Shown here piece by piece: positions 5,943 to 64,000 of a stretch of DNA of 64,000 nt. The notes under the pieces were generated by a model that did no database searches, had not been told where the DNA came from, and worked only from the letters and a program-made list of their open reading frames with translations. Every line of letters begins with the position of its first letter. Within the stretch, counting starts at the first letter, position 1. A program made the translations under genes and the position numbers. Origin of the DNA: Aureitalea sp. L0-47 (lineage in GTDB: Bacteria > Bacteroidota > Bacteroidia > Flavobacteriales > Flavobacteriaceae); contig NZ_JAFMTQ010000014.1 in assembly GCF_026126405.1 (NCBI RefSeq), positions 1 through 64,000 of the forward strand, written 5' to 3'.

Positions 5943-5943
5943 T

Positions 5944-7806: not shown

Positions 7807-8514
7807 TTACAGATAGATGGCGTGGATATCCAAACGATCCATATCGCCAAAGGTAACTCTGAATGATGCATCGGAGCTCAAGCCTCCGCCGTTTACTTCA
7901 CCATTGAGATGAATGCTGTAGGTGCCTGCATCTAAAGGCATGGTAACCGACCTGGAATTATAGATATAACCTGAAGCTGTATCACAATTTTCATTGGTAT
8001 ATACAGTTGATGTGGTTCCAAATTTCTTGGAAGTATCAGGATTTTCCCCATCACCGAGATACCAGTAATTATGAGCTATTTTAGTACGGCCATCAACAAG
8101 CTTTGAGGCGCCGTCATAGCTTTCAAACTCCATAGACATATAATAGGTCACAACTACATAAGCTCGCTGCGTTAGAGTAAAAGTTCTTGTATAAAGCTCG
8201 CTTGAATTAGTATCTGAATCGAAAGCAGTTTGCACAACCACGGGTGCTGAAAGTGCATTCTGAGAAAAAATTGCACCGGAGCGATCGGCTAATGAGAGAT
8301 TACCATCACTATCAACTACCACATTATACAAATCGGTTCCTCCCGAATTCTCACTGTTGTTGGAACTGTTCAAACCATCAATACGAATAGAACTATTCGC
8401 TCCGGCAATATGTAGCTTCTCCTGGGGATTCGAAGTCCCGATACCTACTGCCTGTGCCCAACCTGCTGTAACGGTTGTTAAACAAACGAGATAAAGAGTT
8501 ATTGTTTTTTTCAT
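7807..8514 (-). CDS. Secreted QAVGIGTSNPQ-module protein, paralogue 4 of 5
   Basis: The 235-residue product has a signal peptide (LYLVCLTTVTAGWAQ), the module VGIGTSNPQEKLHIAG, SIRIDGLNSSNNSENSGG and VVDSDGNLSLADRSG. Its C-terminal domain is very close to that of paralogue 5: both contain FTLTQRA, VVVTYY, KIAHNYWYLG, SGYIYNSRSV, PLDAGTYSIHLNG and the same ending DRLDIHAIYL. These two are therefore recent tandem duplicates, with differences gathered in the segment around residues 80-110 and at residues 170-185. The gene begins 42 bp after paralogue 5 ends. Function is unknown. Confidence 0.77.
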   Translation of the reverse strand: MKKTITLYLVCLTTVTAGWAQAVGIGTSNPQEKLHIAGANSSIRIDGLNSSNNSENSGGTDLYNVVVDSDGNLSLADRSGAIFSQNALSAPVVVQTAFDSDTNSSELYTRTFTLTQRAYVVVTYYMSMEFESYDGASKLVDGRTKIAHNYWYLGDGENPDTSKKFGTTSTVYTNENCDTASGYIYNSRSVTMPLDAGTYSIHLNGEVNGGGLSSDASFRVTFGDMDRLDIHAIYL

Positions 8515-8556
8515 GTTGCCTTATTTAAGAAAGAATTGCTTTCAAATGACTTCTCT

Positions 8557-9288
8557 TTACAGATAGATCGCATGTATATCCAAGCGGTCCAAGTCCCCAA
8601 AAGTTACCCTGAAAGCAGCATCTGAGGTTAATCCACCACCGTATACAGCACCGTTTAGATGAATACTGTAAGTACCTGCATCCAACGGTATTGTTACTGA
8701 TCTGGAATTGTATATATAACCCGAAGCTGCATCCGTACTTGAACTAAAGTAAACTGAACTCGTCATTCCATAGGACTTTGATGTATCAGGGGTAACTCCA
8801 TTTCCGAGGTACCAGTAATTGTGTGCAATTTTAGCCCGACCATCATCTACTTTGGCGGAGCCATCATAATTTTCAAATTCCATAGAGATATAATAAGTAA
8901 CTACCACCAGGGCTCTTTGAGTGAGAGTAAACGTTTCTGAATACAGCTCGTTCGAATTCATTCCTGAATTAGCAGTGGTTTGTATTACAACCGGAGAAAC
9001 CAAATTAGCTTCCGAAGATAACTCTCCGGAACGCTCTGCCAATTTCAGATTACCATCAGCATCAACAACTACATTGTACATTTCAGCACCTCCCATGTTC
9101 TTACTATTGTTGGTACTATTTAACCCGTCTATTCTAACAGAACTATCATTTCCCGCAATATGTAGTGCCTCCTGGGGATTCGTTGTTCCAATTCCCACCT
9201 GTGCCCAGCTACCATAAACGGCGGCTACACAAAGCAGACAAAGAGTAACTATTTTTTTCATAATGCTATATTTAAGTATAGTTTTCAA
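8557..9288 (-). CDS. Secreted QVGIGTTNPQ-module protein, paralogue 5 of 5
   Basis: This 243-residue product has two possible starts; MKKIVTLCLLCVAAVYGSWA, ten residues in (ATG at 9261), gives the better signal peptide. The mature protein starts QVGIGTTNPQEALHIAG and then SVRIDGLNSTNNSKNMGG and VVDADGNLKLAERSG. The C-terminal domain (about 140 residues) is nearly the same as that of paralogue 4. The gene follows the Ig-like secreted protein by only 8 bp if the longer start is used, so it is probably cotranscribed with it. Function is unknown, with a surface-exposed trimeric or fibre-like role being one possibility. Confidence 0.77.
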   Translation of the reverse strand: MKTILKYSIMKKIVTLCLLCVAAVYGSWAQVGIGTTNPQEALHIAGNDSSVRIDGLNSTNNSKNMGGAEMYNVVVDADGNLKLAERSGELSSEANLVSPVVIQTTANSGMNSNELYSETFTLTQRALVVVTYYISMEFENYDGSAKVDDGRAKIAHNYWYLGNGVTPDTSKSYGMTSSVYFSSSTDAASGYIYNSRSVTIPLDAGTYSIHLNGAVYGGGLTSDAAFRVTFGDLDRLDIHAIYL

Positions 9289-9296
9289 TATTGTTC

Positions 9297-10448
9297 TTAG
9301 TTGTTCTGTAATAGCGGTCCGTCAGCACCTCCCGAATTACACGGACACCCGTTATTAGGATAGGTTACATAGCTTATTGTTACCGAAGATGAATCGCAAA
9401 TACCTGAATTCGGGGCTGGTAGACAGACTTCATAATCGAAGGTTACATCTCCTAAATATCCTGATGTCGGCGTATAGCTATATGTTCCATCCGAATTAAA
9501 GCTAAACGAAACACCTGCTGGACTTGGACCGCTCACAAGTGAGAAAGTTGATCCTAGCGGCGCATTTCCGTCATTTACTGTGCCATTGAAATCTTGATCC
9601 ATACAACTGGTCTCAGTTTTGGGCTTAGCATATCGCTGAGCTATAAATACTTTACCGTCGCCATGGTCCTGAGTAGCCGCCATTAAGTCTACTCTTGTAA
9701 TTACAGATCCTACTGGAGCAAGATCATCCAATGTAAATATTGCTATCCCAAGTGTTCCACCATTTTCTATAACCCGGCCGGAGTTCCAGTAATCTACTCC
9801 AGCAGGAGGAGCATTGAACAAGGGGCCCCATTGGGTGGTATTCTCACGAACAAATGTATCGCCAAGGAATACTTCCGGGCCACCCCCAGAAGGAATCCCA
9901 TATACTGTTATATAGTAACAGTTATTGGCATTTCTTTCGGTTATTGCCAGGATACCTCCATCGTTTGAAGGGATTCCAGGTGAATAGGTAAGGGTCTGAA
10001 TTTGCGCGTCTGTTGTACCAACAGCAACAAAATCATTGCAAATGTCCCGTCCGTTATCATTTGAGTGGAAATAGTGATTCAAGTTCTTATCCTGAAAAGC
10101 AGCGATGGCATCAGCTTCCCAGGTTGCGTTGCTACTGTTTGTGTTAACATTTACGCCATTCAGAATAATATTATTTTCATTGTGACCATCAGGTCCCAAA
10201 CGTGTAAGACGATACTCGGTAGGCGCCGCAAATGTATTATATACTGTTCCGTCGATTGTAATAGAGCTAATTGTAGCAGGATCCGTATTTACTGTTTGAG
10301 TATCTGCCCATTGGAATGTAACCCCCGTCTGAACAGAGGGAGCTTGTGTTTGTCCAAATGTATCTTGGAAAATTGTAGAGAATATCGCCAGGATAATAGG
10401 TATCCATAACAATGTGAATCTCTTTGATTTGGGGGCTAAAGATTCCAT
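9297..10448 (-). CDS. Secreted protein with C-terminal bacterial Ig/cadherin-like domain
   Basis: The 383-residue product begins with a signal-anchor-like segment (FTLLWIPIILAIFSTIF) and a cleavage-like TFGQ near residue 33. The middle (about 35-270) is a beta-rich domain of unrecognised family with several cysteines. Residues about 280-360 form an Ig-like repeat of the type common in Bacteroidetes adhesins, marked by DGTYSYTPTSGYLGDVTFDY. In related large adhesins such repeats are followed by many more; here the protein stops soon after CPCNSGGADG, so it may be a shortened relative. It is first in the leftward array of surface proteins and has a promoter box 65 bp upstream. Confidence 0.7.
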   Translation of the reverse strand: MESLAPKSKRFTLLWIPIILAIFSTIFQDTFGQTQAPSVQTGVTFQWADTQTVNTDPATISSITIDGTVYNTFAAPTEYRLTRLGPDGHNENNIILNGVNVNTNSSNATWEADAIAAFQDKNLNHYFHSNDNGRDICNDFVAVGTTDAQIQTLTYSPGIPSNDGGILAITERNANNCYYITVYGIPSGGGPEVFLGDTFVRENTTQWGPLFNAPPAGVDYWNSGRVIENGGTLGIAIFTLDDLAPVGSVITRVDLMAATQDHGDGKVFIAQRYAKPKTETSCMDQDFNGTVNDGNAPLGSTFSLVSGPSPAGVSFSFNSDGTYSYTPTSGYLGDVTFDYEVCLPAPNSGICDSSSVTISYVTYPNNGCPCNSGGADGPLLQNN

Positions 10449-48389: not shown

Positions 48390-50033
48390 TTATTCGGGGA
48401 AACCCTCTCGCAACACCAGGTCGCATTCCTTTTCCAGCGACGGATCAACCTTAAGATGTATGTTTCCTTTTGAATTTGGCCGAAGTATGGTGTTTGGGCC
48501 AATCGTGATACTGTTTTTAACGGTTAAATTGAGTGTAGATTCCTTTGTAAACTGTTGGTTGCGAATAGTCACATTTTCAGCATGGGAAGTTATCTTAAAA
48601 TCCCACCGACTGAATTTCTGATCCTGGATATAGGCTGTTTCACCTTCAGTATATAATTTATAAACCATTTCCACGGCCTTACCAATATTCAACATGCCGG
48701 AGCCATAAAGCCCTAGAAAGGGTTCATTGGGTTTTATATGATCTATGTTCCAGGAAGTCATTTTTAGAATACTTTCCACCTCATCCACGGGCAAACAAGG
48801 ATTAAGTGAGAACATCAATCCTATGGTCCCTGTTACAAAGGGAGCAGTTGGGGAAGTTGCTTCGTATTGAATATAAACAATCTCATTTTCCAATAGGAAT
48901 TTGGGAAGTTTCCAAACTCCTACCGACGGTGTAAGAATGTCTATCTTATCGTTTAGTGTAGTTGTAGAAACCCTATAGATATTCGGAGTGACGGATAGGT
49001 CATTGTTTTTGAAACCCATGGTCCTTCCAATATAGCCCCGTATGTTCGATGCATAGTAATTACCCTTTGGACCTACACCATAATTGTCCAGCGGATCAGC
49101 ATACTTGTACATTGCCGTGCCTACAGATATAACATGATCATAAGAAGCAGGATAGTACAACCATTCTCCTTTATTCTCACTGTACGGCCGGTTACCGGCT
49201 CCGGCCACAATAATTGTCCCGTTCTCGAACATTTCATCGATTACCGCCTGGGCAGTATCGTAATATCGAGATGAAACCCAACTACAATTGATCACTCTAA
49301 CACCCATATCCGATAATTCCTTGAGTTGGTCAAGTGTCTTGTAGCTGCCATAGGAAGTGGTATAGATCCCGCAATCGTAGCAAACTCCGGTCCCTCCGTA
49401 CGCATTATTTCCCTGGGCAGCGGCTATTCCGGCGACTCCCGATCCGTGGCCTTTCACATTTGGTGATTTTCGGATCACTTTTATTTTTCCTTTGAATTCG
49501 GCATTGACTGTATCCACTTCGGCGTCGGATATACCTACTATGGTTTCCCTATCACCTGTGGTATAGTACCAGGCCCTGGGCGCTTCCATAAAATCAAGGT
49601 AATCCAGATTAAGTGGTAAACCTTGGTTTTCACCTATAGTGCTGGTAATTCCATAGTCGTTGGGCTGAAAGATCTTTTTATCCTCTTGAGAGATCTCTTC
49701 ACCAAATTCGAAAATATCCCCCGCCCACCGAAGCAAATTATTCATGGTTTCAGGGTTATCCGAGATCACAAAGAATGTCCTTTTTAACTCATCCTTTTTT
49801 GTCCCTCTGAATGTTTTCTTGAACACTTTGATCTTGTTCTCGCTGAATGTACGCTCAAGGCCGGGATGATCACCTTTGTAGTCAATTTTATCGGCTAATT
49901 GCTTCAGCTCGGGTTCAAAAATCGTGTCCTTGGCCCGCATATAAAACCAGTGCTCCGTTTGCGCCCAACCCGAAACAGTAAGTGATAGAAAAAGTAAGCT
50001 GATTATAATTCGCATGGAAGTCTTATGTATCAA
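48390..50033 (-). CDS. Secreted subtilisin-like serine peptidase (S8)
   Basis: The 547-residue product starts with a signal peptide (IIISLLFLSLTVSGWAQ). After a prodomain of about 150 residues comes the catalytic triad: Asp in GISDAEVDTVNAEF (near 170), His in VKGHGSGVAGIAAAQGNNA (near 196) and Ser in EATSPTAPFVTGTIG (near 390), with the oxyanion Asn in VAGAGNRP (near 278). The Asp motif is less usual (SDAEVDT rather than DTGVD). A roughly 100-residue beta domain follows. It is probably exported and could process surface proteins; that is inference. It is convergent with ftsE. Confidence 0.87.
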   Translation of the reverse strand: MIHKTSMRIIISLLFLSLTVSGWAQTEHWFYMRAKDTIFEPELKQLADKIDYKGDHPGLERTFSENKIKVFKKTFRGTKKDELKRTFFVISDNPETMNNLLRWAGDIFEFGEEISQEDKKIFQPNDYGITSTIGENQGLPLNLDYLDFMEAPRAWYYTTGDRETIVGISDAEVDTVNAEFKGKIKVIRKSPNVKGHGSGVAGIAAAQGNNAYGGTGVCYDCGIYTTSYGSYKTLDQLKELSDMGVRVINCSWVSSRYYDTAQAVIDEMFENGTIIVAGAGNRPYSENKGEWLYYPASYDHVISVGTAMYKYADPLDNYGVGPKGNYYASNIRGYIGRTMGFKNNDLSVTPNIYRVSTTTLNDKIDILTPSVGVWKLPKFLLENEIVYIQYEATSPTAPFVTGTIGLMFSLNPCLPVDEVESILKMTSWNIDHIKPNEPFLGLYGSGMLNIGKAVEMVYKLYTEGETAYIQDQKFSRWDFKITSHAENVTIRNQQFTKESTLNLTVKNSITIGPNTILRPNSKGNIHLKVDPSLEKECDLVLREGFPE

Positions 50034-50993: not shown

Positions 50994-51912
50994 ATTCTCG
51001 GTCGCCATAGCGGTTTATAACAAACAGGACTATATCGGTAAGACGCTGGAAAGTGTCTTGAACCAAACATACCGGAATTTTGAAGTGATCATTGTAAATG
51101 ACGGATCTCAGGATAAAAGCGAGGAAGTTATTCTGTCATTTAATGATCCCAGGGTGAAATATTCCCGTCAGGAAAATACCGGTGCTGGAGCCGCGCGAAA
51201 TGCAGCAATATCTAAGGCCACCAAACCATGGATCGCTTTATTGGATGCCGATGACATCTGGTACCCGGACTACCTGGAAGAGCAGTCCCGCCTCATTCAG
51301 AAGTTTCCTTCAGAAAAAGTCTTCGCCACGAATAGCATGATCCATCGGGATGGAAAATTCTTAACGAGGGACTATTCGTTTACACTGCCAAAGGAAGATA
51401 CTGTATTCAATTTCTTTGAAGCCAGTCTCAGGGATTCTTTACTGAATAGCTCCCTTACCGTGGTGCACAGCGATGTGCTTTCTGAAGTAAACTACTACGA
51501 CACCTCCATCAAGAGTGGCCAGGACACAGATCTGTGGGTGAAGATTGGACTGCGCTACAATGTGGTTTTCAGCCCGAAAGTTTGTGGATATTATGAGATC
51601 AATGAAACGAGTCTATTTGAATCGGCAAGAAAAGTTTCAGAAAAAACAACCTTCGAAGCATACGAACATCTGGAAAAGGATAATAAACCTTTAAAGAAGT
51701 TCCTGGATCTAAACCGTTACTCTATCTGCATGATCGCAAAATTTGAGAGAAACAAAGAAGCTTTTAATAAGCTATATCCCAAAATTGACCTGAATAACCT
51801 CTCTTTCTCGCAACGTTTGCTACTGAAGATGAACCGGCCATTACTGGTCCTGGCAAAAAAAACACAAAACTTGCTTTCGCGTCTTGGGATTCGGTTAAGC
51901 TCCTTTAAATAG
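50986..51912 (+). CDS. Glycosyltransferase family 2
   Basis: The 308-residue enzyme begins VEFSVAIAVYNKQDYIGKTL, with VNDGSQDKSEEVI (near 37) and the metal motif IALLDADDIWYPDYLEEQSR (near 84), typical of GT2 enzymes of O-antigen and capsule synthesis. It shares no close identity with its neighbour, so it presumably adds a different sugar. Its final 18 bp overlap the end of the convergent FdtA-like gene. Confidence 0.9.
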   Translation: MVEFSVAIAVYNKQDYIGKTLESVLNQTYRNFEVIIVNDGSQDKSEEVILSFNDPRVKYSRQENTGAGAARNAAISKATKPWIALLDADDIWYPDYLEEQSRLIQKFPSEKVFATNSMIHRDGKFLTRDYSFTLPKEDTVFNFFEASLRDSLLNSSLTVVHSDVLSEVNYYDTSIKSGQDTDLWVKIGLRYNVVFSPKVCGYYEINETSLFESARKVSEKTTFEAYEHLEKDNKPLKKFLDLNRYSICMIAKFERNKEAFNKLYPKIDLNNLSFSQRLLLKMNRPLLVLAKKTQNLLSRLGIRLSSFK

Positions 51913-52305
51913 GAGGAATTGGGCGTAATCACGAATATAATCCGCCTCATCATATTCACCTGACGAGGCCACCAGGCAGATAGCCCCTGAGGTGAAATTA
52001 CTCAACCCCCTCCAGGTTCCTGTTGGGATGAGCAAGCCCCTATATGGCCGATTAAGTGTAAAAGTTCGTTTGGAATGTCCATCGTCCAGAACCACATCGA
52101 AGCTTCCGTTAAGCGCAACCAGGAATTCCAATTGTTCTTTGTGGGCATGTCCGCCTCGGGAAGAATCACCAGGAACGTCGTAGAGATAATAGACACGCTT
52201 GATCTCATAAGGAAGTAAGTCCTTTTCGATCACAGATAAGTTACCCCGACCTTCAGGATCGATGATCTTGGGAATTTCGATAAGTTGAATTTCGTCCAGG
52301 TTCAT
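51895..52305 (-). CDS. Sugar 3,4-ketoisomerase of the FdtA/QdtA cupin family
   Basis: The 136-residue single-domain cupin has the family metal and active-site segment SSRGGHAHKEQLEFLVALNG (near residue 48) and VVLDDGHSKRTFTLNRPYRG. FdtA and QdtA act on dTDP-4-keto-6-deoxyglucose, producing the 3-keto isomer that is then aminated. Reaction and substrate are inferred from family. It follows the leftward glycosyltransferase by 1 bp, and its natural partners (aminotransferase at 58.7 kb, acyltransferase at 54.7 kb) are elsewhere in the same cluster. Confidence 0.88.
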   Translation of the reverse strand: MNLDEIQLIEIPKIIDPEGRGNLSVIEKDLLPYEIKRVYYLYDVPGDSSRGGHAHKEQLEFLVALNGSFDVVLDDGHSKRTFTLNRPYRGLLIPTGTWRGLSNFTSGAICLVASSGEYDEADYIRDYAQFLLFKGA

Positions 52306-52306
52306 T

Positions 52307-53413
52307 TTATTCTAATAATTTCTTCCAACGTGCAGCAATTGCCTCCATTGAGAAGGCCTCAATAGACGATTTTGCATTCGATGATAGTCGTTCATATAAC
52401 GAATCATCATCTTTAATCTTGCGGATCGCTTCAGAAAATAAAGGTAGGCTTCTTTCGGGAATCAACAAACCATTTTCTCCATCTACAACAATTTCCGAAG
52501 GACCCGAAGCAATATCCAAAGAAATCACAGGAGTACCCACGGAAAGTGATTCAACAAGTACCATTGGAAAGCCTTCGTACCTACTTGTAAGTACCGTAGA
52601 TCGCGCATATTTTATCACTGGAAATGGGTTTGGCGTATGTGGAAGGAAGTCAACATGTGCTCCCGCTGCAGATTGCTTAGCATATTTTTTTATATCCTCT
52701 GAATCCGGTCCATCTCCCATGATCACCAAATGTGTTCCCTGTTTCCAAACCTCTGATTGTTCAAATGCATCAATTAAAAAACGCAGATCTTTGATCTCGT
52801 CTACTACCCTACCGTACCACAACAGGTATTGTTTATCACGAAGCTGAATTGGAAGTTCATCTCCTACACTTACCCAATTAGTATCGAAGGCATTATAAAT
52901 AGTAACAGTATTGTGAATTCCTGATGAATTCAGCAACTCGGTTTCAATATATCGGGAAACAGCTACAGTTGCGTAGTTCTTTGAATAAATGTCAATCATC
53001 CGTTCCTCTTTTTCCGAGAAATAGGAGAATTTATTAGAACTGTGAACGACATAGATCCTACGAATTCCTTTATACACATACCTGTCGTAGAACATCTCCC
53101 TTTTACTTTCATTTTTCGGACGGTGATCTATGATGAAATCGAAATTATTGCTCCTGAGAAAACGCTTTAATTTGTAAGCACGGTAGAGTCGGTCACCAAA
53201 AGAATCATTTTCTTTTTTGCCTTTCCCAAGGTTAAGCAATGTTCCCGAAAATGCCTGGTCCACCCTATCCTGAAGGATCACCGTATGAACCTCATAGCCC
53301 AAAGAATCCAGCATATTGGAAAGCATGGCGCACGACCGTTCTGCTCCTCCTTTGCCGAGTGACGTTGCCACCAGGCACACCTTAATTTTAGCCGATTTCG
53401 GAGGCCTCGTCAT
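52307..53413 (-). CDS. Glycosyltransferase family 4
   Basis: The 368-residue GT-B enzyme begins KIKVCLVATSLGKGGAERSC, with the GGAER donor-site loop near residue 20. The C-terminal domain has LLWYGRVVDEIKDLRFLIDA (near 200), HLVIMGDGPDSEDI and the conserved glutamate in TSRYEGFPMVLVESLSVGTP (EX7E, near 290). It retains anomeric configuration. It is followed by the ketoisomerase and faces a divergent GT at 53459, sharing a 45-bp promoter region. Confidence 0.92.
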   Translation of the reverse strand: MTRPPKSAKIKVCLVATSLGKGGAERSCAMLSNMLDSLGYEVHTVILQDRVDQAFSGTLLNLGKGKKENDSFGDRLYRAYKLKRFLRSNNFDFIIDHRPKNESKREMFYDRYVYKGIRRIYVVHSSNKFSYFSEKEERMIDIYSKNYATVAVSRYIETELLNSSGIHNTVTIYNAFDTNWVSVGDELPIQLRDKQYLLWYGRVVDEIKDLRFLIDAFEQSEVWKQGTHLVIMGDGPDSEDIKKYAKQSAAGAHVDFLPHTPNPFPVIKYARSTVLTSRYEGFPMVLVESLSVGTPVISLDIASGPSEIVVDGENGLLIPERSLPLFSEAIRKIKDDDSLYERLSSNAKSSIEAFSMEAIAARWKKLLE

Positions 53414-53458: not shown

Positions 53459-54592
53459 ATGAAGATACTATTGGTTGGGGAATACAGCCGCTTGCACAAC
53501 TCTCTCAAGGAAGGCCTTGTAAAATTAGGACATGAGGTAACCATTGTCGGTAGTGGAGATGAATTCAAAAAGTACCCTGTCGATATTCAGATCAAGAGTA
53601 AATTCGAGAAGGGCTGGCGCAAAAAATTCATGGTGTTGTGCTATAAACTCTTCGGAATAAACCTCAAAGCAAATAGCATCAAAAATCAGTTCTTCGAGCA
53701 TGCTGAAAAACTTAGAGGCTATGATGTGGTTCAGCTCATAAATGAAAGTCCGCTGGGTGCAAATCCGGAGGTAGAAATGGAATGTATCGACTTTCTGAAA
53801 TCGAATAATAAGCAGCTTTTCTTACTTTCCTGCGGAACAGATCATCTGAGTGTGAAGTATGCCCTCGAAAAGAAATTTCGTTATTCAATTCTAACTCCTT
53901 TGTTCGAAGGAAGGGTTTCCGAAGCCGATTTCGATCCGGTTCTGAAATATGTGCGTCCCGAATACAAAGCCTTACACGATTTTGTATTTGAAAGGATAGA
54001 AGGAGTGATCGCTTCGGATCTCGACTATCACATACCACTTATAGGTCATGAAAAGTATCTCGGGATGATCCCAAACCCTATCAATACCAAAAAGATCGAA
54101 TATATCCCTCTGGAGCCGACTGATAAGATCGTAATCTTCCATGGGATTAATCGGCCGAACTACTTTAAAAAAGGCAGTGATTATTTTTCCAAAGCCTTGA
54201 AACGACTTAAAATTTCTCACGGGGATCGCATTGAGATCATTACCGCTGAAAGCGTCCCTTATGCCGAATATATCAAGTTGTACGATAGGGCGCACATCCT
54301 CCTTGACCAGGTCCTGGGTTATGACCAGGGGTACAATGCCCTGGAAGCCATGGCAAAGGGAAAGGTGGTTTTCACAGGGGCCGAAAAAGAGCATACAGAT
54401 TATTTCGGACTTACGGAAAACGTGGCCGTAAATGCCAGTCCTGATGTGGATCAGATCTACGAATCCCTGGTAGATTTAATTGAATCACCAGTGAGAATTC
54501 AGCAAATATCAAGATCGGCCAGGGAATTTATTGAGAAGGAACATGACTATCTGAAGATCGCGCAGAAATACCTCGATATCTACACAGCTTGA
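53459..54592 (+). CDS. Glycosyltransferase, GT4-like
   Basis: The 377-residue protein begins MKILLVGEYSRLHNSLKEGL and its C-terminal half has IVIFHGINRPNYFKKGSDYF (near 225), IITAESVPYAEYIKLYDRAH and a donor-site loop LGYDQGYNALEAMAKGKVVF with the second glutamate of the EX7E pattern (near 300). It differs from the usual GT4 N-terminus (no GGAE motif), so its family assignment is less certain than that of the gene at 52307. It is the first gene of a rightward pair with the acyltransferase. Confidence 0.82.
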   Translation: MKILLVGEYSRLHNSLKEGLVKLGHEVTIVGSGDEFKKYPVDIQIKSKFEKGWRKKFMVLCYKLFGINLKANSIKNQFFEHAEKLRGYDVVQLINESPLGANPEVEMECIDFLKSNNKQLFLLSCGTDHLSVKYALEKKFRYSILTPLFEGRVSEADFDPVLKYVRPEYKALHDFVFERIEGVIASDLDYHIPLIGHEKYLGMIPNPINTKKIEYIPLEPTDKIVIFHGINRPNYFKKGSDYFSKALKRLKISHGDRIEIITAESVPYAEYIKLYDRAHILLDQVLGYDQGYNALEAMAKGKVVFTGAEKEHTDYFGLTENVAVNASPDVDQIYESLVDLIESPVRIQQISRSAREFIEKEHDYLKIAQKYLDIYTA

Positions 54593-54654: not shown

Positions 54655-55143
54655 ATGAGCATGAATGTTATATCCGACAAAGCCATTATTGGTAAAAATG
54701 TACAGATCGGTTCGTTTTGTGTGATCGACGAAGGGGTCGAAATCGGCGACAATACTGTCATCAAGAGTTATGTTGAATTGCGAAGCGGCACCAAGATCGG
54801 GAAGAATTGTTATATCGATTCTCGAGTGTCGAGTTCCGGTAATTGTGTGATCGGAGATAATGTGACGGTTAGATACGACAGTATTCTGGCTCGTGGTGTT
54901 AAAATTGGCGACGGGTCGTACATCTGCCCGAAAGTAATGACCAACAACCTAAACACGGAGAAAGAGCAAATTGGAGGTGCGCATCTGGGCAGCAATGTAT
55001 TTGTGGGTACCGGCTGTGTTTTACAGCATGGGATCGAAATTGGAGACAACAGTGTACTAGGTGCCTTATCCTTTGTTAATAAGCACGTACCACCTAATGA
55101 AGTTTGGTTCGGGAATCCTGCTTCTTTCAAAAAGAAACTTTAG
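54655..55143 (+). CDS. Left-handed beta-helix acyltransferase, FdtC/WbpD-like candidate
   Basis: The 162-residue protein is almost wholly built of hexapeptide repeats ([LIV]-G-x4), for example AIIGKNVQIGSFCVIDEGVE, EIGDNTVIKSYVEL and the coil exit HLGSNVFVGTGCVLQHGIEI. It ends FGNPASFKKKL, as sugar acetyltransferases of this class do. In pathways for dTDP-Fuc3NAc and related sugars an enzyme of this type (FdtC) acetylates the 3-amino group; that fit with the ketoisomerase and aminotransferase in the cluster is inference. Its last 4 bp overlap the convergent gene. Confidence 0.82.
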   Translation: MSMNVISDKAIIGKNVQIGSFCVIDEGVEIGDNTVIKSYVELRSGTKIGKNCYIDSRVSSSGNCVIGDNVTVRYDSILARGVKIGDGSYICPKVMTNNLNTEKEQIGGAHLGSNVFVGTGCVLQHGIEIGDNSVLGALSFVNKHVPPNEVWFGNPASFKKKL

Positions 55144-55889
55144 TATCTCCAGATATCCTTGTTCCGAAGTAACATGTCCTTTTCCGACTCCCAGTCGCGT
55201 ACATAATTTGTTTTGAGAAGTTTTGCGGGTATACCCCCTAACAGAATATTGCTACCGTACTCGGTATAGTCACGGTTGCACATGGAGTTTGATGCCACAA
55301 CACAGGAATCCGGTGTTTTTGTATTGTTCATAATAGAGACTCGATTCGAGATGGTGTTGTAATTCCCAATTTCGATCGCCCCTGCCATAGGGACATATTT
55401 CCCAGTAGTAAGGTCTTTCATAGGGTGAGCTGTGGTGTCCACAACCTGTGATTCATAACCGATTCCCGCCCAGTTACCAAGAACAATTCGGTGAGTACAA
55501 ATAAACTTGACATTTGAACCCAGGCAACCCATATCACCAAATTCGCAGTATCCGTTATGATGGATAAACACAAAACAATCTTTCCCTATATGTGCCCTGT
55601 TCTTAAAGACAATAGTTCCTTCGATGTCGAGTTCGGCCGTCCCGCGGTGGGTAGTCCCACGCTCGAATTGCAATCCGAAACCAATCATTCCCTTCTTTAT
55701 TGGCCCTTCTATTATTACCTTACCCGTAATATTGGTGAACTTCACTGGCCCATAGAACATAACAGGTAACTTAATGGCCGTGGACAGCGGAAATTTCTTG
55801 AAATTAAAGTAAATTGTTTTACCCCAATTAACAGAGCAGTGACGCCTGTATTTACGCTTGAAATTCCGGTATATTTTTCGAAGCCCCAT
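55140..55889 (-). CDS. Hexapeptide-repeat acyltransferase
   Basis: The 249-residue protein has an N-terminal basic segment (LRKIYRNFKRKYRRH) and then a left-handed beta-helix with repeats such as KVIIEGPIKKGMIGFGLQFE and VGNYNTISNRVSI-type coils (AIEIGNYNTISNRVSIM), and CDS end LLGGIPAKLLKTNYVRD. The histidine in FVFIHHNGYCEF may act in catalysis. It probably O- or N-acetylates a sugar of the polysaccharide. It follows the first flippase with a 1-bp overlap (TAATG). Confidence 0.82.
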   Translation of the reverse strand: MGLRKIYRNFKRKYRRHCSVNWGKTIYFNFKKFPLSTAIKLPVMFYGPVKFTNITGKVIIEGPIKKGMIGFGLQFERGTTHRGTAELDIEGTIVFKNRAHIGKDCFVFIHHNGYCEFGDMGCLGSNVKFICTHRIVLGNWAGIGYESQVVDTTAHPMKDLTTGKYVPMAGAIEIGNYNTISNRVSIMNNTKTPDSCVVASNSMCNRDYTEYGSNILLGGIPAKLLKTNYVRDWESEKDMLLRNKDIWRY

Positions 55890-57376
55890 TATTTCTTTCT
55901 TCGGTTTATAAAATCTCGTATCACCCCAGCTATGTCCATTTTCTTATTCAGGAAATATACAGTAAAAATAACAGACAGCAGAGCGAGGAATCCCTGGAAT
56001 ACATAACGTTGCAGGTCACCTTCTAAGTATCCGATAGCAAAGCCAGCCCCAACCATTATGGTGCAGACGATAAATATTCCATAGAATTCCGCGGAAAGAT
56101 AAAAGCTATACCTGAAATAGGTTATCACTGCCAGTCCGACAAAATGCACGAAGTAATAGATACAAAAGCTAATTCCCAGACCTTCCAGGCCTCCCAGGTT
56201 GTATCCCAGCACATTACTCGCGACTAGTAATGCACTAAATCCTATAGCGGTTTTAATGAACAAGGACGAATCACCCTTGGCGATGATCACATAACCAATG
56301 GACCAGGATGCCGCTTTAAACAGCATTCCAAGGATCCCCCAGCTCACAAAGATCACAACCGGCAGGAAATCCCCGGAATATAATATTGTAATGATTAACG
56401 GAGCAAATACCAGGAATAACAATATGATGGGCGTAATTAATAAAACCGCGATATAGGCTTGTTCAAATACTGTTTTTCGCACTTCAACCATGGAATCTGT
56501 GATCGCCGAAAGTCGAGGGAAATAGTCGGTGGCCATGGCGTTGAATATAAGTCCAACGTATGTATTCAGGATCACGATCCCGGCCGTGTAGTAACCCACT
56601 TCGCTCACACCTCCTTCAGAACTGATATAGATCTGGATGATGTATGCTGCCAACAAGGCGATCATACTGCTCACGCTTAAAGTAATACCCAGTTTTACCA
56701 TTTCCTTTCCTTCGGAAAAGACATTCTTCGTAGCAACTTCCACTTTTTCGAGCTTCGTTTTTGCCCTGTAATAACTAGTAAAAGCAAAGCTGAGTAAGGT
56801 CGAAATGATAATGGCGGGCACAATTGCATCCAGCCTGAAAAAGTAGTACAGAGGCACAGTGATAATCAGTCCGGCGAGGTTACCGAAAACATTGGCAGAA
56901 GCCAGGTGCTTTAGTTTCCGGAGGCCTTGAAGAACCGCCAATTCTCCACTTGCAAGCTGCTTGAAAAGTAGAGCCAGGGCGATCCACACGAACGCCAGGG
57001 AAAAGGAGGTATCTCCAAACGCCAGTTTACTCAACAGCCAGGAAAACACCATCATTAACACAGCACCAACCACGCCCGTAATCCAGACTAGTCTTCGCAG
57101 CACTTTCACAGTTCGGGCGACCTCAGTGTCAGTACCATTCTTCAGGGAATATGAGATATCTTTCACACCACTTTTATCAAGGCCGAGGTTTGTTGCACCA
57201 TTCACAAGATTCAGAGTAGTGTTTAACAGCCCGGCGATCCCCATTCCTTCTGGGCCAATGAAGAGGGCGATGAATTTTGATCGAACGATCGAGATGAGGA
57301 TATTGAAGACCTGGACACCCCCAAATAGTGAGGTGGCCTTCATAACCTGTCTGTATGAACTTTTTTGATCGCTCAT
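55889..57376 (-). CDS. Polysaccharide flippase (Wzx / MOP superfamily)
   Basis: The 495-residue membrane protein has about 14 helices and opens MSDQKSSYRQVMKATSLFGG then VQVFNILISIVRSKFIALF, a hallmark of O-antigen translocases. SNEDxx-type charged loops and IYISSEGGVSEVGYYTAGIV (near 245) fit the Wzx fold. It would carry the lipid-linked sugar unit across the inner membrane. It follows another flippase-type gene by 1 bp, making two in tandem. Confidence 0.88.
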   Translation of the reverse strand: MSDQKSSYRQVMKATSLFGGVQVFNILISIVRSKFIALFIGPEGMGIAGLLNTTLNLVNGATNLGLDKSGVKDISYSLKNGTDTEVARTVKVLRRLVWITGVVGAVLMMVFSWLLSKLAFGDTSFSLAFVWIALALLFKQLASGELAVLQGLRKLKHLASANVFGNLAGLIITVPLYYFFRLDAIVPAIIISTLLSFAFTSYYRAKTKLEKVEVATKNVFSEGKEMVKLGITLSVSSMIALLAAYIIQIYISSEGGVSEVGYYTAGIVILNTYVGLIFNAMATDYFPRLSAITDSMVEVRKTVFEQAYIAVLLITPIILLFLVFAPLIITILYSGDFLPVVIFVSWGILGMLFKAASWSIGYVIIAKGDSSLFIKTAIGFSALLVASNVLGYNLGGLEGLGISFCIYYFVHFVGLAVITYFRYSFYLSAEFYGIFIVCTIMVGAGFAIGYLEGDLQRYVFQGFLALLSVIFTVYFLNKKMDIAGVIRDFINRRKK

Positions 57377-57377
57377 G

Positions 57378-58694
57378 CTAACTATTATTCGATTCTGAAG
57401 TTAGATCATCCGGCCTGTCCGGGTTTTTTCTGAAATAGCGGATCAGAAGGAGTAATACAACCACAAATAGTACAGCGTATCGGATAAGGTGTGCAATAAC
57501 AACCCCTTCCACTCCGTAATCGGTGATCAGGTAACGCGAAAGCACAAAAAAGAGTGCCACAGAGACCAATTCAGTAAAAACAAAATTCCAAACTAGTTTC
57601 TTCGCGATGAACTGATGGATAAGTACAAGTGTGGCCAATCTCACAAAATCACCGGCCAGTTGCCACTTGAACAAGGGCGCCATTCCATCGAAATCAATAA
57701 AAATGTATTCGATAAAAAGAAATCGCATGAAGTAAATGATGAACATCCCCACGGCAAATAAGGGAAGTAAGGTCTTGTAGATTACTCCAACTTCTTTCTT
57801 AAAATCATTCTGCGTTTTGATACCCACGAATTTTGGTATCACATACAGTGTGAACAAGGCTGAAGAGAAAACCATATAATTCTTAGACAGGGTTGTCATA
57901 CCGGTCCAGATACCGGCATCCGACTCCGAAAGTCGGTTTGCAAGTACCGATCGAATATCAATCTCCACCAAATTCATTAGCACTGTGGATGCAACCGACA
58001 TCACCGTAAATGCCAGTAGTCTTTTGGCAAACGGAGTGGCTAATTTCAATTTGCTGAATTGCACATACTCTCTAAGCACCTTTATGAAGATGAACAACAT
58101 AACGATCACCTGTAATACTGGGATCACGGCAATCGCGATCAAGGCACCATCCAGGTCGTAATTATAGAGTAAGATGAGCGTTAGAGCCGCTCCCAGCAGG
58201 TAGGCTGTGAGTTCGATGGCAGCGAATTTCTTGTACCTGGACAAGCCGTTCACGATCCCATTGAATACCCTTTGAATTGAAATAAAGGGGACGATTACCG
58301 ACACAAGCTTTATGATATATTCGTATTCCCGAGTGTAAAAGAAGTACTCACTGATCCAGCCCGAACCAAAAAACAAAACCGCAAAGCACAAGGCGCTACC
58401 CAGGATGGTAAAGACAAAGGTTGTGGAGAACAATCGTTGAAGTTGCTCCCTGTCTTCTTTGTATTCGGCAACGTATTTAACGACACCATTGAAGGTTCCG
58501 AAGGAGGTAAGCGACATCAGGATCTGACCCAAATTTCGCAGGGAGCCGATCTTCGCATATCCGGCTTTCCCGGTAAGCTCGGTAAGCTCACGCTGTAGAA
58601 AAAAGGCAACAATCAGACGCACCACAATAACTGTCGCATTCAACGACGTCATCTTCAGCAAAACATTGTTCCGTATAAATCTCGGGATCTTCAA
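57378..58694 (-). CDS. Second MOP-superfamily flippase
   Basis: The 438-residue protein has 12 or more membrane helices. The region ELTELTGKAGYAKIGSLRNL (about 34-53) is a family block in O-antigen flippases, and NRLSESDAGIWTGMTTLSKN is a second. The start is a TTG immediately after the stop of the aminotransferase gene (TAATTG); the next in-frame Met is at residue 15. Two different flippases in tandem are unusual; each may take a different unit. Confidence 0.85.
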   Translation of the reverse strand: MKIPRFIRNNVLLKMTSLNATVIVVRLIVAFFLQRELTELTGKAGYAKIGSLRNLGQILMSLTSFGTFNGVVKYVAEYKEDREQLQRLFSTTFVFTILGSALCFAVLFFGSGWISEYFFYTREYEYIIKLVSVIVPFISIQRVFNGIVNGLSRYKKFAAIELTAYLLGAALTLILLYNYDLDGALIAIAVIPVLQVIVMLFIFIKVLREYVQFSKLKLATPFAKRLLAFTVMSVASTVLMNLVEIDIRSVLANRLSESDAGIWTGMTTLSKNYMVFSSALFTLYVIPKFVGIKTQNDFKKEVGVIYKTLLPLFAVGMFIIYFMRFLFIEYIFIDFDGMAPLFKWQLAGDFVRLATLVLIHQFIAKKLVWNFVFTELVSVALFFVLSRYLITDYGVEGVVIAHLIRYAVLFVVVLLLLIRYFRKNPDRPDDLTSESNNS

Positions 58695-59795
58695 TTAGTA
58701 ATTATTTAATACCTGGACCACCTTGTCGACCTCTCCATCACTCATTACAGGGGAAATAGGGATACTTACTGCTTCCTCATGAATGTGTTCACATACAGGG
58801 AATTTCAAGTGACTGTATTCCTTTAATGCGCCCTGTCTGTGTGGTGCAATTGGATAATGAATGAGACAACCGATGCTGTTGGATTTTAAATATTCCATAA
58901 ATCCAACGCGATCGGACACACGTACCACAAACAGGTGAAAGATATGATCCTTTTTACCCGAATAGGAAGGCATAGTTATTTTCTCATTTTGAATTCCCTC
59001 GAGATATTTAAGAGCGATTTCTCTTCTCCGCTCATTATCCTGATCCAGCAATGGCAGTTTACACAACAGGAAAGCAGCCTGAAGTTCATCCAGTCTCGAA
59101 TTGAAGCCTTTAAGGTCGTTCACGTACTTGGAGGAAGCCCCGTAGTTTCGCAATTTTCGAATTACTTCGGCTAGTTTAGCATCATTGGTTGTAACCGCTC
59201 CTCCATCTCCAAGGGCACCGAGATTCTTGGTAGGATAGAAACTAAATCCCGCTGCGTCCCCCAGGTTACCAGCCATTATTCCTTCGGAATTCATCGCACC
59301 ATGACCTTGTGCCGCGTCTTCGATAACCAACAAGCCATGTTCCCTTGCAAATTCGTTGATCACCTCCATAGGCGCCAGTTCGCCGTAGAGGTGAACCGGC
59401 ATAATAGCTACTGTCTTTTCCGACAGGTGATTTGTCAGGTCCTCCGTTTTGAAATTATAATTGGACGTATCTGCTTCCACCAGGACCGGAATCATACCCA
59501 CCTGTTTTATTCCAAGAATAGTAGCGATATAGGTATTCGAAGCCACCAGTACCTCGTCTCCTGCTTTTACTTTTCCCATGAGCTTATAGCCTTCCAGGAT
59601 TAGACGTAAAGCATCGAGTCCGTTGCCCACACCAACGCAGTGTTTGGTCCCGCAATAATCTGCAAATCGGCCCTCAAAAGCAGTCACCTGGTTTCCCAAT
59701 ATGTAATAACCAACATCGAGAAAATCCTCGAAAACCGACTTGAATTTATCTTCAAATCGTTGGTTGATCTTATGTAAATCCAGGAATTGGATCAT
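58695..59795 (-). CDS. DegT/DnrJ/EryC1 aminotransferase, FdtB/QdtB-like
   Basis: The 366-residue PLP enzyme has the cofactor lysine in [18 protein letters not shown] (near 190), the nucleotide-sugar motif [12 protein letters not shown] (near 157) and a C-terminal [20 protein letters not shown]. Members of this family aminate 3-keto or 4-keto sugars; beside a FdtA-like ketoisomerase the 3-keto substrate is likely. It overlaps the upstream FemAB/GNAT-like gene by 4 bp (ATGA) and is followed immediately by a flippase. Confidence 0.92.
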
Positions 59796-60766
59796 CTCAG
59801 TTCGATGTTTAATTGCTTATAAGATGCAGTAGGCAGTAAATAGTTGTCTATAGTATGAGCTCTTGCCCCACAGGTTTCCTTCCAGAATATGAGACCGGCA
59901 CTCAGCGCGGCTCCATTTTCCAGGCTGGACGTATTGAAGTTGAAATAACGCCTTCCTTCGGAAAACTCGTTTATGATGAAGTCGTAGCAAAGATCTAGAC
60001 TACCGTATTTATTTTTGTCAGCATTGCCCGACACGTATTGAGGATGCACTGTTGTTTTTGTAAGAAATACAGTAGTTCCAGCCACAATGTTGCCATCCGA
60101 ATTATAAACGTTCACTTGCTTGATATTATCGGGAAACCTTGAAGTGAGTAATTGAATCTCTTCCAGGGTGTGCACGGGCTCGGAGTCGTGTTTCTGCTGA
60201 AGATTGGGAATAAGGATCTCGTTCCAGAACCCTTCTATATTATCATCGATAGTAACTCGTAAACCATGACGAACCGCCTTATTGATACCTTCTCTTCGGT
60301 TTTTCTGAAAACGGATTTTATGATCGTAATCGAGGACCATTAATATATCTCGTTTAAGCAACTTCCCACCTGCCCTGTGCATCAGGTAATCGATCTCATC
60401 GGAAGGAACAAGATGGTACAATCTTGGGATCATTCGGATTTCAATATCCTGAACACCCTGTTCATTTAAATACTTCAATACCTCAGCAAATGCGTCGAAT
60501 GTATCTTGAAGTTTAGCTTTTTCAGACAATACGAATCCGCCGTAGGTCAACCCCTGATGTGAGTGCACCCTACTACCTTTCTTATTTGCGGGAAGTACTG
60601 CGAATAACTTACCTTCCTTAAATACGAGCAGTGAGAAGTCTTCAAACCGATCGCTGTGATATTCCATGAAACCCCGTTGAAAAAGGAATGTTGCATTTTT
60701 AGCCTTGGAACAAAACTGGTCCCAGGCTTCTTGGTGAGAATCGTTGTATTGTACTACTTTGTAAAT
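59792..60766 (-). CDS. FemAB/GNAT-like acyltransferase, apparent ATT start
   Basis: An internal ATG at 60667 gives 291 residues, but family members extend further upstream with a segment that ends [17 protein letters not shown]. Translating upstream in the same frame gives [40 protein letters not shown] without any ATG, GTG, TTG or CTG before a stop at 60805, which leaves ATT at 60766 as the only near-cognate start (324 residues). The body contains [20 protein letters not shown] and a C-terminal [20 protein letters not shown]. It may acylate the amino sugar. An alternative is that the shorter form is real or that the segment was lost by mutation. Confidence 0.7.
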
Positions 60767-60768
60767 AG

Positions 60769-62232
60769 TTAGACCTTTTCGAAAGTTACTTTTCCGTCCT
60801 CGTCAATACACTTATAAACGCCTTTTGGGGCATTTTCTTCTATGATTATATAACTGCTGTTCTCTTCGAGCTTGTTCAAATATGACTCATTTTCGGCTAA
60901 ATACGAAAAAAGAATCCTGAAAACATTAACGGGCGATTCAAGTTTGGAATCAAATTCCGGGGCTATTCCGTCCGGCCAGTGAATGGCAAGTTGAGCGCTG
61001 TATATGCTATAGATCCAGTCTCTTTCCAAGGATTTTTTCCTGGCCTGCAGGGTGTAATCCATCCCTACATCGCCACCGTGATCTGCCATTATGATAATCA
61101 GCGCATTCGGGTCATTGGCCTTAATTATGTCAATTGCTTTAGTAAGGGTGGTGTTGGCGATCTGTAGGCGCTCGATCCACAGTTCCTTTTCCTTTTCAGC
61201 ACCTAAACTACTTTCTTTCCTCGAAGGAACATGACCTGGCTTGAAGATCTCAACAAAGTAAAATTTCGGTTGAAGGGAATCGAGTTTCATAGTCGTCTCT
61301 AGCGGTTCGAAGATCTCTTTTTCCTTGCTATATCCAGTTCCTATAAAGCCCACATCTTCTTTTGTGAAGTTGCTGTAGTCATATCCCATTTTCGGTTTGT
61401 TGGCCAGTAAATAAGGGACTTCCGCAATAAAATGCGTCTTATACCCATTGTTCTTTAGTATATCCAGCACAGGGTTACCAGAAACGATAACTTCCCTGCC
61501 ATTAATGGTCTCTGCGAGATTAAACCCGTAATTGAGGTAGTGATGTTTCATTCCGAAAGTAGCCATATTTGAGGCGAGGGTTGCATTGTAATTGCTTCGG
61601 AAACCATCGTACAGCGTAAATCCGTTCTTCTCGAGATAGTTTTTGAAGTCACTATTGTCAATTTCATAGTAACCTCTATCCATCTCCGAAAAGTTCACAT
61701 ACCCATCAGGTTGCAGGTAGTAAATATTGGGTGTCTTTTTAAAAATTGCAGCTTCGATATCATCCGGCTGTTGCATCCAGGCGTCCGAATAGTTCAATTG
61801 CTGAAGTACCGTTGGGACTAGTGAAAACAATCCTATAAAGGCCAGAAGTAATTGAAATACAACCAGTTTCTTAAGATGCTTATACAGGAAATAGGCAAAA
61901 ACTACAGAGACAATCACGATACCAAGCGTAAACCATAAACGGAATTGTGCATACAGAGACAGCTCAATAAAAACTAAGAAAAACAACAAACTCATGAAGG
62001 GGAATGTGTATTTTCTAAGTCTCGATAATGCATCAATTTTAAGGATGCGGCGAGTAATGAAGAAGGCAACAACCGGTACGATTAGAAAAAGACAAATGAA
62101 AAAACCCAGATGCTTCCACGAATTGATGAGGGAATAATTATTTGAGTAATAGAATATAACCGGGTACAAACCGCAGGCTAACCCCAGAAGGAGGGGTTGG
62201 GTTAGTTTGTCATTTTGAATCTTTTCTGTCAT
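60769..62232 (-). CDS. Inner-membrane enzyme of the alkaline-phosphatase/sulfatase superfamily (first of a pair)
   Basis: The 487-residue protein has about five N-terminal membrane helices (residues 10-150) and a periplasmic hydrolase-fold domain. The fold's markers are YYLQPDGYVNFSEMDRGYY (metal aspartate region, near 175), a candidate nucleophile Thr in SNYNATLASNMATFGMKHHY (near 220) and NALIIIMADHGGDVGMDYTL (metal DH motif, near 375). Such proteins include LTA synthases and phosphoethanolamine transferases, so it may add or remove a phosphate-linked group on the polysaccharide. The exact reaction is unknown. It ends 3 bp before the ATT start of the FemAB-like gene. Confidence 0.75.
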   Translation of the reverse strand: MTEKIQNDKLTQPLLLGLACGLYPVIFYYSNNYSLINSWKHLGFFICLFLIVPVVAFFITRRILKIDALSRLRKYTFPFMSLLFFLVFIELSLYAQFRLWFTLGIVIVSVVFAYFLYKHLKKLVVFQLLLAFIGLFSLVPTVLQQLNYSDAWMQQPDDIEAAIFKKTPNIYYLQPDGYVNFSEMDRGYYEIDNSDFKNYLEKNGFTLYDGFRSNYNATLASNMATFGMKHHYLNYGFNLAETINGREVIVSGNPVLDILKNNGYKTHFIAEVPYLLANKPKMGYDYSNFTKEDVGFIGTGYSKEKEIFEPLETTMKLDSLQPKFYFVEIFKPGHVPSRKESSLGAEKEKELWIERLQIANTTLTKAIDIIKANDPNALIIIMADHGGDVGMDYTLQARKKSLERDWIYSIYSAQLAIHWPDGIAPEFDSKLESPVNVFRILFSYLAENESYLNKLEENSSYIIIEENAPKGVYKCIDEDGKVTFEKV

Positions 62233-62259
62233 CTGAATATTAAAATTCGAAATTGCGTT

Positions 62260-63771
62260 CTATTGCTTAATGAATACTATTTCGCCTTCATCATTTATAT
62301 ATTGATATATTCCCTCAGGGGCGTCATTCTTTAGAACTACGTAACTCCCATTATCCTGTAAATTTTCTAGATAGGCAGTGTTTTCGGAAAGATAAGAAAA
62401 CAATACGCGAAACAGGTTAACGGCAGTTCCAATGTACTGGTCCGTTTCAGGAGCATCTCCATTGGGCCAATGGATCGATAACTGACTGCTAAAAATAGAA
62501 AAGATCCTGTCCCTATCTTGTGTTTTAGAGTAGATCTGTCTACTGTATTCCATACCAACAAAGCCACCGTGATCTGCCAAAATGATGATCAGTGCGTTCG
62601 GGTCGTTCGCTTTGATCTGGGTAACATAATCTACCAGTTGCTCACAGGCATAATCCAGGCTTTCCAGCCACTTTTTCCTTTCCACTTCTATACCTCGTGA
62701 ATTTGCAGATCGATTTTGAATATGGCCGGGATTGAAGATCTCCATGAAAAAGAACTTTGGTTCGTCCGGATCCTCTTCCATGAATTGCTTTAGATGGGGC
62801 ATGAGATCTCTCTGAGGTCCGAGACCGGTGCCGATATAACCCACATCATCGAGTGATAGGTTGCTTTTATGATAGCCCATTTCTGGCCTGTTCAGCAATA
62901 AGTAGGGCTTTTGCGCAAGGAAATGCGTGATATAGCCATTCTTCTTGAATAGGTCCAATACTGCGTTGCCTGAAATAAGAAGGTTCCGCGCATTGATAGC
63001 TTCACTATAACTCCTACCACCGTTATAATAGTGATGCTTCATCATGAAAGTAGCACTATTTGAAGCTAGTGTTGAAGCATAATTACTTCGGAATTCAGGA
63101 TAATTAACGAAGCTATTGTCTAGTAGAAAGTTCTCAAACTCGCTAATATCGTAGTTGTAGTATCCCTTTTTAAGCTCTGTAAAGTTGACAAAGCCATCTG
63201 GTTGGATCACGTAAACATTTGGTTTTTTGACAAATACAGCGTTCTCTATATCGTCCGGTTGTCTCATCCATTCGTTCGAGTAATTGAGCTGGCCATATAC
63301 CTTCGGAATAACACTGAATACACCAATTACGGCTAAAATCAGTTGTAATACAATCACCTTCCGAAGATATTTATGGAGGAAGAAGGTAAAAACAACAGAT
63401 ATCACAAAGATCAGTACAATTAGTTTCTTCTGAAGACCCGCATAAAGACAAACTTTCAGCAGGAACAGAAAAACAAATATGTTTAGAAACGGCAACACAT
63501 ATTTTCGAACTTTATCGAGCGTTTTTAACCTTGATACCCGATCCAATACAAAGAAAATTACCAAAGGCACACATATAAACATTATGGCAAAATAGGCCAC
63601 ATGTCCCCAGGTATTGACAAGCGAATAGTTATTAGTGAAATAGAAGAAGATCGGATAGGCTCCGGCAGCAATCGCGGCAAACAGAAATAGGTATTTTTCA
63701 GAAGTAAATAGGGTCCTCAACCAATTTCCTCGTTTGGATTCTATATTGCTATTTGTGTTTTTTTGAGTCAT
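62260..63771 (-). CDS. Inner-membrane enzyme of the alkaline-phosphatase/sulfatase superfamily (second of a pair)
   Basis: This protein is a close paralogue of the one at 60769, with matching segments NYSLVNTWGHVAYFAIMFIC, NVYVIQPDGFVNFTELKKGY, SNYASTLASNSATFMMKHHY and NALIIILADHGGFVGMEYSR. It has about five N-terminal membrane helices. The ATG at 63771 (MTQKNTNSNIES) is preferred over 63786. Tandem duplication within a polysaccharide cluster suggests two related modifications; biochemistry is unknown. It is 27 bp from its sister. Confidence 0.75.
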   Translation of the reverse strand: MTQKNTNSNIESKRGNWLRTLFTSEKYLFLFAAIAAGAYPIFFYFTNNYSLVNTWGHVAYFAIMFICVPLVIFFVLDRVSRLKTLDKVRKYVLPFLNIFVFLFLLKVCLYAGLQKKLIVLIFVISVVFTFFLHKYLRKVIVLQLILAVIGVFSVIPKVYGQLNYSNEWMRQPDDIENAVFVKKPNVYVIQPDGFVNFTELKKGYYNYDISEFENFLLDNSFVNYPEFRSNYASTLASNSATFMMKHHYYNGGRSYSEAINARNLLISGNAVLDLFKKNGYITHFLAQKPYLLLNRPEMGYHKSNLSLDDVGYIGTGLGPQRDLMPHLKQFMEEDPDEPKFFFMEIFNPGHIQNRSANSRGIEVERKKWLESLDYACEQLVDYVTQIKANDPNALIIILADHGGFVGMEYSRQIYSKTQDRDRIFSIFSSQLSIHWPNGDAPETDQYIGTAVNLFRVLFSYLSENTAYLENLQDNGSYVVLKNDAPEGIYQYINDEGEIVFIKQ

Positions 63772-63845
63772 GAATGAAAAAGGCACAAACCAATAACTAA
63801 ATTTACTCTTTTGAAGTCTGAAAATCGACAGACCTTCTCAGGGAG

Positions 63846-64000
63846 CTATTTTCGTTTCAATAAATACAATACCCGCTGAGTACCGGCTATCTGTTCTTTT
63901 TGAACTATTTCAAAATACTTCGAAAACCCTTTTTCAAATTCTCCTTCATTATAAAAATCGAAATGATTTATAAATTCCCTTTTCCGAACCAGTAGCGACT
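63846..64000 (-). CDS. C-terminus of a SAM-dependent methyltransferase (partial)
   Basis: The last 51 codons of a leftward gene are visible; translation ends FSKYFEIVQKEQIAGTQRVLYLLKRK in form, with the segment HFDFYNEGEFEKGF before it. This tail resembles class I methyltransferases found in polysaccharide clusters. The rest lies beyond the window edge, so the assignment is tentative. Confidence 0.5.
   Translation of the reverse strand, partial: SLLVRKREFINHFDFYNEGEFEKGFSKYFEIVQKEQIAGTQRVLYLLKRK

Follow-up and report, generated by a model that had tools for sequence, protein, structure and literature searches.

A NoeA-like kinase-methyltransferase gene and tandem alkaline-phosphatase-superfamily genes in a putative glycan-decoration module of Aureitalea sp. 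L0-47 and related Flavobacteriaceae

Two membrane proteins of the alkaline-phosphatase (AP) superfamily are encoded in tandem in a glycan locus of Aureitalea sp. L0-47, directly downstream of a gene for a homologue of rhizobial NoeA. We conclude that this module is a tandemly expanded, NoeA-NoeB-like glycan-decoration module. On balance, the two AP-type proteins are probably NoeB-like periplasmic phospho-group transferases that decorate the Wzx-exported surface glycan together with the upstream NoeA-like kinase-methyltransferase. The window, the stretch of 64,000 nucleotides that was analysed, covers both AP genes, the 3' end of the NoeA-like gene and the adjoining glycan-locus genes described below.

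The AP-superfamily pair and its locus

The minus strand carries both AP genes. P0001 (positions 60769-62232, ATG start, 487 aa) is the copy beside the FemAB gene, and P0002 (62260-63771, ATG start, 503 aa, with a possible alternative GTG start at 63786) is the copy beside the NoeA-like gene. The first-pass annotation had described two paralogues with shared membrane segments, a TLASN and an ADHGG motif, and aminosugar and flippase genes as neighbours, and each of these points was borne out. The proteins were 49% identical over their length, five membrane segments were predicted in each, and both motifs were present in both. The last two segments of P0002 appeared fused in a crude hydropathy scan, and the model of P0001 placed helices at residues 11-31, 39-63, 67-94 and 99-146. 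Taken together, hydropathy and model helices gave five N-terminal membrane helices followed by a periplasmic catalytic domain, which is the layout of EptA and EptC.

The NoeA-like gene enters the window at 63846-64000 (minus strand); its full extent on the contig is 63846-65249, encoding 467 aa directly upstream of P0002. Further upstream and outside the window follow bipA and then a kdsA-like gene. On the other side, a conserved FemAB/GNAT-like acyltransferase gene (59792-60667, minus strand) stands between the AP pair and the genes for a DegT/DnrJ/EryC1 sugar aminotransferase (58695-59795), a Wzx-type flippase (57378-58694), a second Wzx-type flippase-like protein (55889-57376) and a hexapeptide-type acetyltransferase-like protein (55140-55889), all on the minus strand. 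A glycosyltransferase gene on the plus strand (53459-54592) is followed on the minus strand by those for a group 1 glycosyltransferase (52307-53413) and an FdtA-like sugar ketoisomerase of the WxcM C-terminal family (51895-52305). A gene for a subtilase-family protease marks the edge of the glycan locus (48390-50033 of the window). In promoter and terminator scans, promoter-like sites were no more frequent than in shuffled sequences.

The earlier assignment to the alkaline-phosphatase superfamily was upheld by an AP-fold AlphaFold model of P0001, run with 81 homologues (pLDDT 93.2, pTM 0.91), and by the conservation of D176, T/S218, D384 and H385. The best structural matches in the PDB were the periplasmic domains of EptC and YejM (VIA Z ~21-22), LtaS, EptA/MCR-1 and many sulfatases. 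PDB sequence searches with a single protein or a 22-row profile returned nothing significant, and the Pfam Sulfatase family PF00884 matched P0001 at 25.3 bits against a curated cut-off of 25 and P0002 just under it at 20.8.

Residue conservation was counted over 145 full-length relatives. The predicted metal ligands of P0001, D176 in PDGY (61705-61707, minus strand; D192 in P0002) and D384-H385 in ADHGG (61078-61083, minus strand; D400-H401 in P0002), were invariant in 145/145. The same holds for H231 and for the predicted active-site His H334 in PGH (61231-61233, minus strand; H350 in P0002), which aligns with the His of LGTHIKY in EptC. At the predicted nucleophile T218 in TLASN (61579-61581, minus strand; T234 in P0002), Thr was found in 133 relatives and Ser in 12. 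The formylglycine motif C/S-x-P-S/A-x-R is absent from both window copies, and none of the 145 proteins has PxR after the Thr or Ser; a Thr-nucleophile phospho-enzyme is therefore the natural reading. The periplasmic parts of P0001 and P0002 contain at most one Cys each and therefore no EptA-like disulfides.

Both copies are under purifying selection (pN 0.12-0.27 versus a saturated pS of ~0.8-0.9 against relatives), and selection keeps both intact. In the tree, P0001 and P0002 fell into different supported clades, each grouped with the same-position copies of relatives, which indicates that their duplication is old and not recent.

The NoeA-like partner and its coupling to the AP genes

Over its full length the partner is homologous to NoeA of rhizobia (hhalign E 3.9e-58, 446 columns), and plasmid tblastn matched it to NoeA as well. 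The genes noeA and noeB were reportedly described in 1995 as host-range genes. The pair decides the range of plants open to infection by a root-nodule bacterium, and to our knowledge their chemistry has so far only been hypothesised. The C-terminal half of the partner is a class I methyltransferase domain (Z 16.5 to NodS). Its N-terminal half has invariant R35, D120, N125 and D137, set against the kinase residues K72 (replaced by Arg), D166, N171 and D184. A PDB fold search with the partner was filled by methyltransferases and recovered the methyltransferase half but not a kinase fold, and Pfam gave weak RIO1 matches only for the N-terminal half. This half nevertheless appears kinase-like, judging from residue spacing, secondary-structure order and the published analysis of a homologue. 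There, Lani_1194/NoeA was described as a kinase-methyltransferase family, set apart as a separate and novel family of kinases, and the neighbouring Lani_1195/NoeB was predicted to have an alkaline phosphatase fold (PMC9758233). WbdD, which acts on O-antigen by adding a methyl-phosphate cap, likewise combines kinase and methyltransferase in one protein, but its methyltransferase is N-terminal and followed by the kinase and a coiled coil, whereas the order in the partner is reversed (PMC3482155).

The order bipA - NoeA-like - AP(1-6) - FemAB - DegT - Wzx - GT - GT - FdtA was strongly conserved across 78 related loci, nearly all from Flavobacteriaceae among the records naming a family. The NoeA-like gene stood immediately upstream of the AP genes in 71 of these loci, and 65 of 72 NoeA-AP junctions overlapped or were at most 30 nt apart. 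AP genes were present in one copy (33 loci), two (30), three (12), four (2) or six (1), whereas the NoeA-like gene was single-copy in 44/44 genomes. Of 299 genomes of the family, 46 carried AP genes and 44 carried the NoeA-like gene; 43 genomes had both, three the AP genes only, one the NoeA-like gene only and 252 neither (Fisher 3e-47, with phylogeny taken into account only through the within-genus contrasts given below). Two of the AP-only genomes, G051 and G618, hold AP remnants only, and in the third, G021, the contig begins inside the AP array. In the NoeA-only genome G058, a divergent PF00884 gene directly follows and overlaps the NoeA-like gene. Both genes went together in each of the four genera in which both states occur (G044/G585, G048/G587, G051/G591 and G052/G592), and three genomes in which they are unlinked (G016, G047 and G566) retained both.

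Some further arrangements were noted. An extra lone AP paralogue lies beside dnaK in L033 (9367-11157), L034 (9789-11282), L036 (9503-10963) and L047 (1255-2751), with dnaE-like genes near in three of the four and the NoeA-like gene elsewhere in the genome. The six-AP array (L069, 8529-16247) comes from a Flavobacteriaceae metagenome bin, and one of its copies is a 114-aa fragment. In L182 (8774-11495), a NoeA-like gene overlaps a very divergent PF00884 membrane gene in a different polysaccharide locus.

The association extended beyond the family, and nearly all of the distant NoeA-like genes had a gene of the PF00884 type beside them. Of 11 other Bacteroidota genomes that carry a NoeA-like gene, 10 have an AP gene right beside it, recognised as PF00884-type or by profile match; in the remaining one, G130, such a gene is kept at another site. 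The noeA gene of Ensifer and Rhizobium is followed by noeB, annotated as sulfatase-like, and NoeA-like genes are followed by a sulfatase-like gene in Novosphingobium, an AP-type ORF in Gemmatirosa (Gemmatimonadota) and an 'LTA synthase family protein' in Singulisphaera (Planctomycetota). The deltaproteobacterium Smac51 has a PF00884 gene on the upstream side. Ten NoeA-adjacent AP proteins, found in Novosphingobium, Gemmatirosa, Singulisphaera and six further genomes of Bacteroidota, scored 31-64 bits with the profile of the window subfamily, and hhalign comparisons with other NoeA-adjacent partners gave 5e-12 and 2e-11. With the same profile, EptC, OpgB, YejM and the remaining sulfatase-like proteins of the genome scored around zero or lower. 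NoeB of the S. meliloti type (E 0.086, -0.5 bits) was too divergent to be joined by profile, and some other partners likewise scored near zero; NoeA partners thus do not all belong to one AP subfamily. Since only one additional genome was recovered when 296 genomes drawn from across the phylum were searched with the AP profile under a strict cut-off, the window subfamily proper is mainly found in Flavobacteriaceae; when P0001 served as a plasmid tblastn query, the one match was weak, to a sulfatase-like protein of Skermanella.

The exceptions G058, G051, G618 and G130 do not contradict the coupling of the two genes. That the NoeA-like and AP-type proteins act together is well supported by their distribution. 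Two further features of these loci are worth recording: a hypothetical gene of ~71-75 aa directly precedes the noeA-like gene in rhizobia and Novosphingobium (L184 and L189, 5757-5972; L187, 5759-5986) and was not seen in flavobacterial loci, and in one Bacteroidota locus (L204) AP-type genes flank the NoeA-like gene on both sides (5197-6684 and 8170-9645).

The bipA-femAB slot and the competing functional readings

Among 99 relatives, FemAB was found in 34 versus AP genes in 16. In AP-less relatives, the interval between bipA and femAB contained a GT2 gene with a GT-C-kind membrane protein (the GT-C label is our interpretation of a protein with no Pfam match), an MBOAT with a DUF1574 protein, a single membrane protein, or nothing. 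GT2/GT-C or MBOAT/DUF1574 modules also stood beside the AP array in several AP-positive loci. O-acylation by MBOAT proteins and GtrB-type systems are additive decorations at the membrane or periplasmic face, and most of the alternative modules of the slot are of this kind. In two loci with an AP remnant and a lost NoeA-like gene, L048 (G051) and L175 (G618), a GT2/membrane-protein module and small methyltransferases fill the slot.

A periplasmic phospho-transferase that decorates the glycan is plausible from fold, conserved residues, topology and neighbourhood. Because an AP fold, a Thr nucleophile and a kinase-like partner occur together, the group added would be phosphate-linked. The cytoplasmic NoeA-like protein may make a donor or a modified precursor by phosphorylation and/or methylation, and the AP-type proteins would then use the Thr nucleophile and metal to transfer a group linked through phosphate to the glycan at the periplasmic side. 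The AP paralogues may differ in acceptor sugar or position; the ratio of one partner gene to many transferases suggests a common donor or precursor that serves several acceptor specificities. In the searched literature, no usable account was found of a surface glycan from a flavobacterium whose defined phosphate substituent could be traced to the locus.

The closest known arrangement is that of S. meliloti NoeA-NoeB and Lani_1194/Lani_1195, in which a kinase-like-methyltransferase protein is likewise followed by a membrane AP-superfamily protein and the pair is conserved across phyla (PMC9758233). The flavobacterial form differs by the tandem expansion of the AP gene to 1-6 copies, by its position between bipA and femAB in a glycan locus of the Wzx type instead of a nod operon (the nodL-noeA-noeB host-range operon of S. 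meliloti), and by an AP subfamily that S. meliloti-type NoeB does not join on profile score.

Precedents for installing a phosphate-linked group on a glycan are Lpt-O and GacH, and EptA, EptC and LtaS offer a further comparison. The periplasmic domain of EptA and EptC has several disulfide-forming cysteines, which the window proteins lack, and the first metal ligand of EptA and LtaS is a Glu, whereas an Asp is predicted in the window proteins. EptC/EptA and LtaS (6a82, 5fgn, 2w5q, 4uor) share with P0001 and P0002 the fold of the catalytic domain, a Thr nucleophile with a following Ser (TxxS) and the DH metal pair, but only ~10-16% identity. Lpt-O of Shigella flexneri adds phosphoethanolamine (PEtN) to O-antigen and resembles the pair, by its published description, in its C-terminal sulfatase domain (aa 165-465) and its role in O-antigen modification; it differs in being a plasmid-borne single gene, for which the parts of the report consulted mention no kinase-methyltransferase partner (PMC3458804). 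GacH adds glycerol phosphate (GroP) to the streptococcal group A carbohydrate. It similarly uses a membrane-anchored extracellular catalytic domain to decorate a polysaccharide with a phosphate-linked group, which a lipid donates, but it is a Gram-positive protein whose 824 aa include a far larger membrane domain (1-395) (PMC12282279). The statement of the first-pass annotation that such a role was not known for this subfamily is therefore too strong in view of Lpt-O and GacH.

These precedents also open a different reading, in which the window proteins would be classical PEtN or GroP transferases with PE or PG as donor, in the style of EptA, Lpt-O, LtaS and GacH, and the NoeA-like protein would separately methylate or phosphorylate a sugar of the same glycan. 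The shared architecture of five helices and an AP domain, the common fold and the TxxS pattern are in line with it, as are the transfers of this kind by Lpt-O and GacH onto O-antigen and a cell-wall glycan. By itself, however, it leaves the near-perfect co-occurrence with the NoeA-like gene, unlinked cases included, unexplained, and the scarcity of periplasmic cysteines does not fit it; we regard it as possible but on the whole doubtful.

The first-pass annotation had left open whether the pair installs or trims phosphate-linked groups on a surface glycan, and fold, conserved residues, topology and neighbourhood favour the former and disfavour the latter. It is improbable that the proteins are phosphatases or phosphodiesterases removing a phospho-group, such as one added by the kinase-like partner, from a lipid-linked or exported glycan: the AP-superfamily fold serves hydrolases too, and one can conceive of a kinase in the cytoplasm working with a hydrolase in the periplasm, but the nearest membrane-anchored topological relatives are mostly transferases, expansion to six tandem copies better fits acceptor-specific transfer, and the slot otherwise holds additive decoration modules. 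Non-catalytic envelope regulators of the YejM/PbgA (LapC) type seem more improbable still. YejM was among the top structural matches, with a Z of 22.6 for the whole chain but an rmsd of 15.7, and the window-subfamily profile gave a comparison E of 0.12 and a negative score against it. The invariance of catalytic-type residues in all relatives counted, the variable copy number, the accessory distribution and the location in a glycan slot all argue against a regulator. Glycan sulfatases are scarcely credible and sulfatase function was rejected as largely excluded, for although PF00884 was the only Pfam match above cut-off and sulfatases abound among the structural matches, T218 in TLASN takes the place of the formylglycine motif and the locus is biosynthetic and not catabolic.

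Implications for surface-glycan decoration

The association of NoeA with NoeB is itself already reported from bioinformatic work. As far as the searched literature shows, the tandem-expanded flavobacterial form, its residence in a glycan-decoration slot with interchangeable contents and the almost absolute co-occurrence, unlinked cases included, are new. Recognition of the NoeA-like partner, which the first-pass annotation had missed, changes the most likely identity of the system. The flavobacterial loci place a pair of the NoeA-NoeB type inside a glycan locus, in a slot of known kinds of decoration modules, and the pair forms a near-obligate couple of which the transferase half expands in tandem while the kinase-methyltransferase stays single. 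The prediction for these bacteria is that their exported glycan carries a group linked through phosphate and possibly methylated, and the finding could explain a long-open question of symbiosis.

More tentatively, and in our estimate improbably, NoeA-like proteins may make a lipid-linked donor, for instance one bearing methyl phosphate, for several acceptor-specific NoeB-like transferases, by a scheme common to marine bacteria, planctomycetes and rhizobia. If true, such a system of one donor maker and many transferases would also explain the host-range role of noeA and noeB.
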